64,000 nt of DNA from Chthonomonadaceae bacterium. GTDB lineage: Bacteria; Armatimonadota; Fimbriimonadia; Fimbriimonadales; Fimbriimonadaceae. Positions 3,836 through 9,858 of the stretch are shown piece by piece. The stretch spans positions 248,001 through 312,000 of the forward strand of contig CP054189.1 of assembly GCA_015709495.1 (NCBI GenBank), read 5' to 3'. The stretch's first letter is position 1, and each line of letters opens with the position of its first letter. The position numbers and the translations under genes are program-made. The notes beneath the pieces were generated by a model. That model was not told the origin of the DNA. It was given only the letters and a program-made list of their open reading frames with translations, and made no database searches.

Positions 3836-3927
3836 TCTTCCCAAGTGCCCCCACAAAACCCCAGCCGATGCCACCCGATTGGGGCGCAGGAAAATGGCAA
3901 TCTACGGCGATGTCTGCCAAAACCCCC

Positions 3928-3957
3928 TTGACACTCCACTTCGCAGAAAGGTACAAA
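3928..3957 (+). promoter_or_regulatory. Sigma-A type promoter for groES
   Basis: TTGACA at 3928-3933 and TACAAA at 3952-3957 are separated by 18 bp. The CIRCE-like operator begins directly after the -10 box, so a bound repressor would cover the start of transcription. Confidence 0.75.
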
Positions 3958-3984
3958 TTGGCAGTCCGCAGTAAGGACTGCTAA
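3958..3984 (+). promoter_or_regulatory. CIRCE-like HrcA operator
   Basis: Half-sites TTGGCAGTC and GACTGCTAA are separated by exactly 9 bp, the architecture of the CIRCE element (consensus TTAGCACTC-N9-GAGTGCTAA). Three positions differ from consensus. Two of them (C to G at left position 7, G to C at right position 3) are paired, so dyad symmetry is kept there. The location between the promoter and groES fits HrcA control of the chaperonin genes; hrcA itself is not in the window. Confidence 0.8.
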
Positions 3985-4017
3985 TCAACTATTCCATCAG
4001 GAGGAAAAGACCCAACC

Positions 4018-4308
4018 ATGTCCAAACTCAAACCGCTCGGCGACAAGGTCGTCGTTCAGGTGCTCGACAAGGAAGAGAAGACCGTCGGCGGGATTTACCT
4101 TCCCGACACGGCGCAGAAGAAGCCCCAGGAGGGCAAGGTGATCGCGGTCGGCCAAGGCCGAGTTCTCGACAACGGCGAGCGCAACAAGCTCACGGTCAAA
4201 TCCGGCGATCGAGTGCTCTTCAGCAAGTACGGAGGCAATGAGGTCACGATCGACGGCGAAGAGTACACGATCCTCGACGAGGATCAGATCTACGCGGTGC
4301 TCGGGTAG
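4018..4308 (+). CDS. groES: Co-chaperonin GroES (Cpn10)
   Basis: The 96-residue heptameric lid of the GroEL folding chamber. The full-length family pattern is present: [12 protein letters not shown] at the N-terminus, the mobile-loop region with [13 protein letters not shown], then [10 protein letters not shown] and the C-terminal [17 protein letters not shown]. The start is fixed by an AGGAGG Shine-Dalgarno at about 4000. It is expressed from the promoter with the CIRCE-like operator upstream. Unusually, groEL does not follow directly: 635 bp carrying an S23-family gene and an 8-bp repeat array intervene. Confidence 0.98.
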
Positions 4309-4373
4309 GAGAGTCATCCGCGGATTCGCTCGTTGGCATGTTGGACTTTAGCGTAGGATCGATCGAGCCGCCC

Positions 4374-4784
4374 ATGAATCGGACCGAGAAGATCGAGTCG
4401 TTCGAAGATCTTGAAATCTGGCAAGTTGCCATGAACCTTCTTGTCGAAGTCTACGACTGGGTCGAGGAGTTCCCTTCTGCGGAGCGGTACGGGCTGACTA
4501 GTCAGCTCACGCGCTCGGCCGTTTCAATTCCGTCGAACATTGCCGAGGGGTGGGGCCGAGGTCGAGGTCCGGGACAAGCCCAGTTCATGAGGTATGCCCG
4601 AGGGTCGACGTACGAACTCCTCACGCAACTCGAAGCTGCAAGGCGACTCGGATTCGGAAATGCGGCCCGCGCGCAGAGCTTGAGAGAAGGTTATGTGAAA
4701 CTCGGTAAGCAACTGAACGCATATCTCTCTTGGCTGGAGTCCAAGATCGTCCGCGAGGACACGGCCTCGTACGGCGACGAATGA
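4374..4784 (+). CDS. Four-helix-bundle protein (S23 / 23S rRNA intervening-sequence family)
   Basis: A 136-residue protein. The family signature is clear: FEDLEIWQVAMNLLVEVY, then YGLTSQLTRSAVSIPSNIAE, then a run of helices ending in LNAYLSWLESKI. Members of this family (PF05635) are encoded within 23S rRNA intervening sequences or as free-standing genes and are related to the Avd protein of diversity-generating retroelements; the biochemical role is not established. I prefer the ATG at 4374 because the family-like sequence begins there; an upstream ATG at 4338 adds 12 unlike residues. It lies between groES and groEL in the same orientation, and its 3' end runs directly into an array of 8-bp repeats. 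Confidence 0.88.
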   Translation: MNRTEKIESFEDLEIWQVAMNLLVEVYDWVEEFPSAERYGLTSQLTRSAVSIPSNIAEGWGRGRGPGQAQFMRYARGSTYELLTQLEAARRLGFGNAARAQSLREGYVKLGKQLNAYLSWLESKIVREDTASYGDE

Positions 4785-6575
<1,791 letters not shown>

Positions 6576-7209: not shown

Positions 7210-7217
7210 TCTGGGTG
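7210..7217. repeat. Left target-site duplication of the outer IS copy
   Basis: The octamer TCTGGGTG here is repeated exactly at 9827-9834, immediately flanking the outer IS256-family element. An 8-bp duplication is the size expected for this family. Confidence 0.9.
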
Positions 7218-7269
7218 GGTCGTGTCCCAGGACGTGGTGTAGTGGGCGCCATCCGCCTGTTCCATGATA

Positions 7270-8423
7270 TCACCATCCGCTTGCTCTTGCGAGCAGCGCG
7301 TCGTTTTCGTGCTCGGCAGCCCGAGGCTCTCCTTGGGAGCCTGCCGCCGGGAGACTTGCCATTCGTCGTGCTGCTCCATGAGGATCGCTCCCACCAGCCG
7401 CACCACCCCGGATTCGTTCGGGAATATCTGCACCACGTCCGCGCGGCGCTTCACCTCCCGGTTGAGCCGCTCCAGCCCGTTGGTCGAGGCCAGTTGCGGC
7501 CACAAACCCGGCGGATGCGCCCGGTGCGCCAGCACGTCCTCCATCGCCTCCCGCATGAGCCGAACCGCCTCCGGAAAGGTCTCCTCCAGATGCGCGGCGA
7601 CCTCCAGCCACTTGGCCTTGGTGGTCTCTATATCGGCCTGAGCCAGAGCCGTGCGGATCAGGCAGGCCACCCTCTCCTTGCGCCCCTTTGGGAACCCGCG
7701 CCAGCACATTGCGCATGAAGTGCACCCGGCAGCGCTGCCACTGGCAGCCCATGCAGCGCTCGATCGCTTTCTTGAGCCCCGAGTGGGAGTCTGAGACCAC
7801 CAGCCTCGTCCCCGAAGGCCCCGGTCGAGGACCGAGCGCAGGAACTCCGTCCAGAACTCCTCCGTCTCGGCGTGCCCGACGCGCATCCCCAAAACCTCGC
7901 GGCGCCCCTCTTCGTTCAGTCCGATCGCCACCACCGCCGCCTTCGACACGATCCGAGAGCCGTCGCGAACCTTCACGTAGGTAGCGTCCAGCCAGAGGTA
8001 AGGGAAGCTCCCTCGAGCGGACGCTCCAGGAACTCCAGAACCCGCCCTCGACCTCCAGGCAAAGGCGAGAGACCTCGCTCTTGGAGATCCCCGAGCCTCC
8101 CAGAGCCTGCACCAGATCGTCCACCGCCCGGGTGGAAACCCCTTGCAGGTACGCTTCCTGAATTACGCTCACGAGAGCCTTCTCCACGCCCCGGCGAGGC
8201 TCAAGAAAGCTCGGGAAGTAGCTGCCCGTGCGGAGCTTGGGAATCCGGAGTTCTACGTCTCCCACGCGCGTCTTCCAACTGCGGTCGCGGTACCCGTTTC
8301 TCCAGGTCTTCCGGTCTGAAGCCTCCCTTTGAGCCTCCACCTCGAGTTCCATCAGCTCCGAAAGTGCGTCTTTGACCAACTCTCGAAGCATGTCCCTAAC
8401 TTCCGCGCCCTCCAAGAGCGCTA
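7270..8423 (-). pseudogene. IS256-family transposase of copy A, interrupted and frameshifted
   Basis: Encodes the body of a Mutator-type DDE transposase on the minus strand; the first codons are stranded at 9733-9748 on the far side of copy B. Family blocks are recognisable: [72 protein letters not shown] and [15 protein letters not shown]. These hold the second Asp and the Glu of the DDE triad. The frame is broken at two places shared with copy B and by three further single-base length changes in runs of C or T (near 8008, 7682 and 7308). It cannot make an intact transposase as read. Confidence 0.9.
8416..8423. repeat. Left target-site duplication of the inner IS copy
   Basis: GAGCGCTA here is repeated exactly at 9725-9732. 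The two octamers bracket copy B and show that it inserted into the 5' end of the copy A transposase gene. Confidence 0.92.
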
Positions 8424-9724
8424 GGTCGTGTCCCAGGACGTGGTGTAGTGGGCGCCATCCGCCTGTTCCATGATATCACCATCCGCTTGCTCTTGCGAGC
8501 AGCGCGTCGTTTTTCGTGCTCGGCAGCCCGAGGCTCTCCTTGGGAGCCTGCCGCCGGGAGACTTGCCATTCGTCGTGCTGCTCCATGAGGATCGCTCCCA
8601 CCAGCCGCACCACCCCGGATTCGTTCGGGAATATCTGCACCACGTCCGCGCGGCGCTTCACCTCCCGGTTGAGCCGCTCCAGCCCGTTGGTCGAGGCCAG
8701 TTGCGGCCACAAACCCGGCGGATGCGCCCGGTGCGCCAGCACGTCCTCCATCGCCTCCCGCATGAGCCGAACCGCCTCCGGAAAGGTCTCCTCCAGATGC
8801 GCGGCGACCTCCAGCCACTTGGCCTTGGTGGTCTCTATATCGGCCTGAGCCAGAGCCGTGCGGATCAGGCAGGCCACCATCTCCTTGCGCCCTTTGGGAA
8901 CCCGCGCCAGCACATTGCGCATGAAGTGCACCCGGCAGCGCTGCCACTGGCAGCCCATGCAGCGCTCGATCGCTTTCTTGAGCCCCGAGTGGGAGTCTGA
9001 GACCACCAGCCTCGTCCCCGAAGGCCCCGGTCGAGGACCGAGCGCAGGAACTCCGTCCAGAACTCCTCCGTCTCGGCGTGCCCGACGCGCATCCCCAAAA
9101 CCTCGCGGCGCCCCTCTTCGTTCAGTCCGATCGCCACCACCGCCGCCTTCGACACGATCCGAGAGCCGTCGCGAACCTTCACGTAGGTAGCGTCCAGCCA
9201 GAGGTAAGGGAAGCTCCCCTCGAGCGGACGCTCCAGGAACTCCCGAACCCGCCCTCGACCTCCAGGCAAAGGCGAGAGACCTCGCTCTTGGAGATCCCGG
9301 AGCCTCCCAGAGCCTGCACCAGATCGTCCACCGCCCGGGTGGAAACCCCTTGCAGGTACGCTTCCTGAATTACGCTCACGAGAGCCTTCTCCACGCCCCG
9401 GCGAGGCTCAAGAAAGCTCGGGAAGTAGCTGCCCGTGCGGAGCTTGGGAATCCGGAGTTCTACGTCTCCCACGCGCGTCTTCCAACTGCGGTCGCGGTAC
9501 CCGTTTCTCCAGGTCTTCCGGTCTGAAGCCTCCCTTTGAGCCTCCACCTCGAGTTCCATCAGCTCCGAAAGTGCGTCTTTGACCAACTCTCGAAGCATGT
9601 CCCTAACTTCCGCGCCCTCCAAGAGCGCTATGCTATTGTTTGCCATTCTCGTCCTCCGTTGACTTCTCACAAAGCAACCGGACGGAATGGCGCCTCTTTC
9701 TACACCACGAGCCGGGACACTAAC
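8424..9724 (-). mobile_element. IS256-family insertion sequence (inner copy B), full length
   Basis: A 1301-bp element with imperfect terminal inverted repeats: the outer 25 bp match at 20 positions, including GTGTCCC and CGTGGTGTAG. It is nearly identical to copy A and is flanked by GAGCGCTA on both sides. It is structurally complete but its single gene carries two frameshifts. Confidence 0.93.
8476..9646 (-). pseudogene. IS256-family transposase of copy B, two frameshifts
   Basis: Begins at the ATG at 9646 ([14 protein letters not shown]) and ends with ALLARASGW at 8476. The span is 1171 bp; restoring one base at each of two sites would give a normal 390-residue Mutator-type transposase. 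The breaks lie near 9265 (after CLEVEG, where [12 protein letters not shown] continues in another frame) and near 9015 (after DRGLRG, where [11 protein letters not shown] continues). The DDE residues would be the Asp of LWLDATY, the Asp of VVSDSHSG and the Glu of NGLERLN. All three are present, so the gene is broken only by the frame changes. Confidence 0.9.
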
Positions 9725-9835
9725 GAGCGCTATGCTATTGTTTGCCATTCTCGTCCTCCGTTGACTTCTCACAAAGCAACCGGACGGAATGGCGCCTCTT
9801 TCTACACCACGAGCTGGGACACTAACTCTGGGTGC

Positions 9836-9858
9836 CACCCCAAACTTGCTTTGGGGTG
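9836..9858. repeat. Palindromic intergenic element, copy 1
   Basis: CACCCCAAA and TTTGGGGTG form a perfect 9-bp inverted repeat around a 5-nt spacer. The same palindrome occurs at 10089-10111 and three times at 63530-63693. Here the flanking GGTGC lies on the left, so this copy is in inverse orientation relative to the others (which continue GGCACCC on the right). Confidence 0.85.

Follow-up and report, generated by a model that had tools for sequence, protein, structure and literature searches.

What does it mean when an operator that hardly varies among bacteria carries the same base swap in both of its arms? CIRCE is a near-constant sequence across distant bacteria, thought to silence the chaperone gene groES until heat. 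Here we have analyzed a stretch of 64,000 nucleotides (the window) from a genome of 2.90 Mb in a single contig (G000), with a CIRCE-like element just ahead of groES. A preliminary description of this element had proposed that a C-G pair was replaced by G-C inside the dyad, that a paired change preserving symmetry is what drift of an operator together with its repressor would give, and that the local HrcA may therefore read a shifted motif. We have examined the element, its counterparts in related genomes and the repressor itself. The window's family (f1) is presumably Fimbriimonadaceae, of the Armatimonadota. The closest named HrcA to that of G000 is the one of Fimbriimonadaceae bacterium ACE_ARM1 (CP075364.1), 47% identical. 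In the best-ranked open-licence literature there was no mention of HrcA or CIRCE together with Armatimonadetes, Armatimonadota or Fimbriimonas.

The element ahead of groES

The 9-9-9 architecture that had been described was borne out. The complete 27-mer reads TTGGCAGTC CGCAGTAAG GACTGCTAA, with CGCAGTAAG as the spacer, and lies at a chaperone promoter (groES or dnaK) as expected of CIRCE, 33 bp upstream of the groES ATG. The degenerate form given in the preliminary description, TTrGCAGTC-N9, was found with 0 mismatches at a single place in the window (two strand rows, with 0 and 1 mismatches). This is far above chance: shuffled versions of the window gave a mean of 0.13 rows at up to 3 mismatches, and at least two such rows in 3 of 100 shuffles. 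When position 7 of each half-site was masked (TTRGCANTC-N9-GANTGCYAA), the only exact match in the whole genome was again 3958-3984. As a control, the reversed masked pattern had exact matches in 0 of the 113 genomes of the class set and in 1 of the 201 of a second set.

Compared with the CIRCE consensus TTAGCACTC-N9-GAGTGCTAA, 3 of the 18 arm positions differ. Two of them are the C/G swap, present in both arms as had been claimed; the third is an A to G change at position 3 of the left arm, which breaks one pair and leaves the dyad imperfect at 1 of 9. In G094, a genome of the same species, the arms are unchanged and the spacer differs at 2 of its 9 positions. With an hrcA gene encoding an intact DNA-binding domain in the same genome, 3958-3984 is a genuine CIRCE-type operator by all sequence tests except the exact consensus.

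Table 1. Features at the groES promoter and downstream genes (positions in the window)
Feature	Position	Strand	Sequence or evidence
Distal CIRCE-like operator	3894..3920	+	ATGGCAATC-N9-GTCTGCCAA; 14/16 masked positions; 64 bp upstream of the proximal one, start to start
Predicted -35 hexamer	3928..3933	+	TTGACA, 6/6 match
Candidate -10 hexamer	3952..3957	+	TACAAA, 18-bp spacer; adjoins the left arm; relatives have TAnAAT-like hexamers there
Proximal CIRCE-type operator (putative HrcA site)	3958..3984	+	TTGGCAGTC-N9-GACTGCTAA; pattern match; arms the same in G094
Shine-Dalgarno	3999..4004	+	AGGAGG; sequence
groES (type A)	4018..4308	+	Pfam Cpn10, E 2.1e-35
23S rRNA-intervening-sequence-type protein, between groES and groEL	4338..4784	+	PF05635, E 3e-33
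groEL	4944..6575	+	Pfam Cpn60_TCP1, E 1.1e-76

The candidate -10 is a weak hexamer that a stricter scan missed. The groES transcription start predicted with it would fall near 3964, which is half-site position 7. Between groES and groEL there is also a 16-bp tandem repeat of CCAACA units (4784-4920). Further downstream, at about 7215-9838, two adjacent and alike transposase-like copies with broken frames were recognized by eye from the sequence and the ORF list, and they are followed by a 102-bp tandem duplication (9623-9826, 99% match).

A canonical copy elsewhere would be difficult to reconcile with a shifted motif; the whole genome contains no exact one, and only three places within 3 mismatches (2, 3 and 3). 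Sites with 1 mismatch to the masked pattern were found at C1:2258170, upstream of a second groES (TTGGCACTC-N9-TACTGCTAA), and at C1:330644 (TTAGCACTC-N9-GTCTGCTAA), and the distal groES site has 2 mismatches. At up to 3 mismatches there were 19 places genome-wide against 15 for the reversed-pattern control, that is, noise. A scan upstream of hrcA and dnaK had been suggested. The main dnaK gene has no CIRCE-like operator (the best in its locus scores 11/16) and the site before hrcA (CTGGCGCTC-N9-GTCTGCCAA) is at the genome-wide noise level; it is unchanged in G094, where the surrounding stretch is nearly identical too. Right-arm position 7 is G at all five sites considered in the genome, C1:330644 and the hrcA-upstream one being uncertain.

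The C1:330644 site (L001:1501-1527) is located 197 bp ahead of an ORF without Pfam match, and its spacer starts with TGGTCCC, like those of the distal groES operators of G017, G043 and G046. The hrcA gene (L004:1150-2214), separated from the main dnaK by about 650 kb, seems to be solitary, with no adjoining chaperone gene detected by eye in 3.6 kb. Just beyond the end of the window (C1:312879-316173) there are tandem partial HSP70-like matches, one of them with an internal stop.

Position 7 in the family and beyond

We located groES in 61 genomes, 52 of which had at least two matches. Of the 114 groES matches we dropped three, one lying at a contig edge and two being weak; 2 of the remaining 111 had no groES start, and the comparison was carried out with 109 upstreams. 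Within f1 there are two kinds of groES, type A, that of the window, and type B. Conservation is biased when the best site is picked; we therefore masked the half-site positions one at a time, and omitted sites scoring below 13. For position 7 this kept 34 of 35 f1 type A sites, 32 of 33 f1 type B sites and 36 of 41 sites from the other families of the order (f2-f5).

The canonical C at position 7 had a frequency of 0.37 in f1 type A (34 sites) and 0.45 in f1 type B (32 sites), against 0.99 in f2-f5 (36 sites). The TTRGCA core in f1 was conserved at 0.86 or above. The next lowest values in type A were those of positions 9 (0.84), 1 (0.86) and 8 (0.88), and in type B position 9 of the right arm was loose too. 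At position 7 the left arms of the 34 type A sites had G in 21, A in 8 and C in 5, and the right arms C in 20, G in 12 and A in 2. Right arms other than C in the proximal sites thus amount to 14 of 34 in type A versus 0 of 36 in f2-f5 (p 7e-6, Fisher test with relatedness ignored), and the type A right arms are located downstream of the predicted start.

Among the matches listed for the exact masked pattern in the class, the canonical pair appeared in 2 of 53 in f1 versus 21 of 22 in f2-f5; in this and the following counts among the matches listed, the f1 entries come from the class set only, those of the phylum set being omitted. Another family of the same phylum, f17, had the canonical pair in 0 of 9 among the matches listed, the changed arm being the groES-side right arm in 8 of 9 (by eye). 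The other families of the phylum had it in 44 of 55 among the matches listed, or 36 of 41 without f28. One changed arm was found, also among the matches listed, in 6 of 14 in f28, 3 of 8 in f7, 1 of 2 in f20 and 1 of 2 in f36. As position 7 varies in some of these families (f28, f7), the tolerance is not unique to f1; f1 and f17 show the most marked loosening without being alone in it. Relatives outside the phylum had C at position 7 in 81, G in 14 and A in 3 of 98 half-sites (48 of 80 hrcA loci). Some of the hrcA-upstream sites of Chloroflexota have GACTGCTAA as right arm, with the same G at position 7, mostly with only one arm changed, and L318 (Dehalococcoidia) has G in both arms as in the window. 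The variant form of the putative operator spans the family and is not a private co-change of one repressor and its operator.

Ahead of hrcA, nothing convincing resembling CIRCE was found in the f1 relatives except in G000 and G094, at a score of at least 12 (with some genes missed or misread) or of at least 14. Of seven other exact f1 sites examined, two are directly ahead of groEL (L351 in G016 and L349 in G012) and five (L346, L347, L348, L350 and L352) are near no recognised chaperone gene by eye, so that the regulon may be wider or these sites may be inert. The type B groES operator (L003:1501-1527, and relatives) often keeps the spacer TCGGCGGTA, or one close to it, together with the arms across genera.

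Symmetry of the arms and the repressor

The two arms were alike at position 7 in 12 of the 34 type A sites, with 10.8 expected by shuffling (p 0.38). Symmetric G/G was found in 8 of the 34, the site of the window included. The arms being independent at this position, symmetry is not evidence of paired compensation. We rejected the compensated symmetric swap, given that arm shuffling revealed no excess and that G, A and C coexist; position 7 of these predicted sites is a loosened position. From the idea that the local HrcA reads a shifted motif, the shift at position 7 survives, and it is family-wide, but the position has become open to G, A or C instead of being cleanly swapped.

HrcA, whose absence would have refuted the proposal, is encoded by one gene in G000 (E 9.9e-38), with the frame intact. 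The predicted structure (pLDDT 91) contains a winged helix-turn-helix with the recognition helix at residues 53-65; a sequence comparison gave Thermotoga HrcA (entry 1stz) as the only relative with a solved structure. We recovered 116 DNA-binding domains from 119 loci and compared 115 by column (G094 was omitted). In the helix motif A-T-x-R-N-E, A was retained in 105, T in 103, R in 105, E in 101 and N in 88 of the 105 domains printed. In f1 the helix reads [KR]SAT[VI]RNE, and likewise in f26 (4 of 5 HrcA) and in part of f12, families with canonical sites in 12 of 12 and 7 of 7, respectively, among the matches listed. A single helix residue, the first, sets f1 apart from its order-mates: Ser in 32 of 36 f1 proteins and Pro in 13 of 14 order-mates, Ser being also the commonest elsewhere in the phylum (31 of 45). 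Inspection of the helix, which had been proposed as a check, therefore gave no diagnostic change. We rejected a recognition-helix change as the cause because the motif is common to families with canonical sites, the Ser/Pro difference excepted, and found no protein change that accounts for the tolerance. Its cause on the protein side may be in another part of the domain, or in the Ser/Pro difference combined with other residues.

Two operators at one promoter

A search for pairs scored on core positions 1-6 only found two sites 46-65 bp apart in 20 of the 35 f1 type A groES upstreams, the window included. These paired operators at type A groES promoters are new here. The spacing was 64 in 8 and 62 in 5 of the 20, and shuffled upstreams gave 0.002 hits each. 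With a looser score at least two sites were found in 24 of 35 type A upstreams, versus 4 of 33 in type B and 2 of 41 in f2-f5; the 24 include G012 and G021, with spacings of 23 and 30 that are not of the pair type and are excluded from the 20. In the window the two operators flank the TTGACA and TACAAA hexamers.

Half-sites with CTC were 25 of 40 among those facing outward versus 2 of 40 among those facing the promoter (p 4e-8, Fisher test with relatedness ignored). None of the four half-sites of the window is CTC, so the window has the double layout only, without the contrast between outer and inner halves. G001, the one other species of its genus that was compared, has the proximal site and lacks the distal one. 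Helical phasing of the sites gave a Rayleigh p of 2e-5 over 22 spacings and of 0.07 over the 9 distinct ones; since it fades over the latter it is only suggestive, and the spacing is also constrained by the promoter in between.

Possible causes of the loosening

Sharing of bases with the promoter could by itself produce the pattern if HrcA were tolerant everywhere and the operator overlapped the +1 in type A or the -10 in type B. The proximal left arm of type A does have a purine at position 7 in 29 of 34 sites, and in 26 of 34 the best-scoring -10 hexamer begins 5-8 bases upstream of the operator, placing the predicted +1 at or beside position 7. In type B, a TANACT -10-like hexamer lies inside the right arm (top-ranked in 23 of 32), and the G of the arm is lost at positions 9 and 7 while the A between them is kept. 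However, the f5 promoters, with a -10 at nearly the same distance from the site (-5 in 7 of 11), keep the left-arm C in 10 of 11, the type A right arms are altered too, and in f17 the -10-like hexamer begins 11 bases before the site, the right arm being the changed one as described above. The distal operators have loosened inner half-sites as well, and exact TA...T abutment showed no significant association with a position-7 purine (p 0.13). We consider an overlap acting alone unlikely: it is partly true but fails on f5 and f17. Because f5 keeps its C and the type A right arms change, overlap would help to explain the choice of base and not the tolerance. In the proximal left arm the promoter probably has a share in the direction of the change, from C to purine, given that position 7 coincides with the predicted +1.

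The compensated drift favored by the preliminary description, in which operator and recognition helix changed together and a swapped symmetric motif is read, would fit the absence of canonical CIRCE from the genome, the G in the right arm of the five sites considered and the Ser/Pro difference at the start of the helix. But Ser also prevails in the phylum's other families, whose sites are mostly canonical among the matches listed, and the arms do not covary, with C, G and A coexisting, which makes this explanation improbable. Could the symmetry instead preserve a hairpin in the leader RNA? The arms can pair in RNA and the window site retains the pairing at position 7, but a Watson-Crick pair is missing there in 22 of the 34 type A sites (with G-U in 2 of these), the arms again fail to covary, and if transcription starts near 3964 the left arm would for the most part be untranscribed; of all the readings this is the one to which we give the least credit. 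Neutral decay of an operator abandoned by HrcA is hardly more credible. It would account for the loosened position 7 and for the imperfect distal site; against it, 33 type A sites show conservation of 0.95-1.00 at positions 2-6 even though their spacers differ, G000 and G094 share the arms and not the spacer, and the hrcA frame is intact.

Proposed mechanism and relation to known systems

The reading that we think probable is that of a working HrcA operator at the groES promoter, read through its TTRGCA core with tolerance at position 7, often paired and with a left arm partly shaped by the promoter. HrcA bound at 3958-3984 would lie across the transcription start, keeping RNA polymerase blocked until the repressor is inactivated by heat. 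The f1 HrcA would read mainly the TTRGCA core and tolerate G or A at position 7. A second operator, in most cases some six helical turns upstream, brackets the promoter in more than half of the type A set, including that of the window, and across the paired set the outward half-sites tend to remain canonical while the promoter-facing ones are loosened. More speculatively, the f1 groES promoter may be clamped by two HrcA dimers on the same helix face (separated by about six turns in most cases and by five in some genomes), with outward half-sites tending to be canonical and promoter-facing ones loose. Cooperation would then replace tight binding, and the strict reading of position 7 would have been lost without a change in the helix; we regard this extension as possible but doubtful.

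Compared with the groESL operator and HrcA of the Bacillus subtilis type, the locus has the same 9-N9-9 repeat with a TTRGCA core before groES and an hrcA gene in the genome. It differs in that position 7 is here G, A or C, in the distance between hrcA and the main dnaK and in the two operators found in many relatives. In Campylobacter jejuni the footprint of HrcA overlaps the transcription start (PMC7464140), and the predicted overlap with the start resembles it. The nine CIRCE sites of delta-proteobacteria tabulated in another study all have C at position 7 in both arms (PMC545781); the architecture of the groESL operator is the same as in the window and position 7 differs. A pair of CIRCE elements is present at the dnaK promoter of Lactococcus lactis and is said to overlap promoter sequence (PMC1676014), whereas the f1 pair is at groES, 46-65 bp apart, on either side, with the inner halves loosened in the family set.

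The clade described here has clear bounds, and within it a single base pair of the half-site is loosened while the motif of the recognition helix is unchanged. The sister families of the order, together with the affected f17 of the same phylum, provide natural controls, so that the onset of drift in an ancient repressor-operator pair becomes directly testable in this clade. The features that merit further attention are the double layout and the unchanged helix motif. Operators that come in pairs, with their inner halves loosened, suggest cooperation as a mechanism that could permit such drift.
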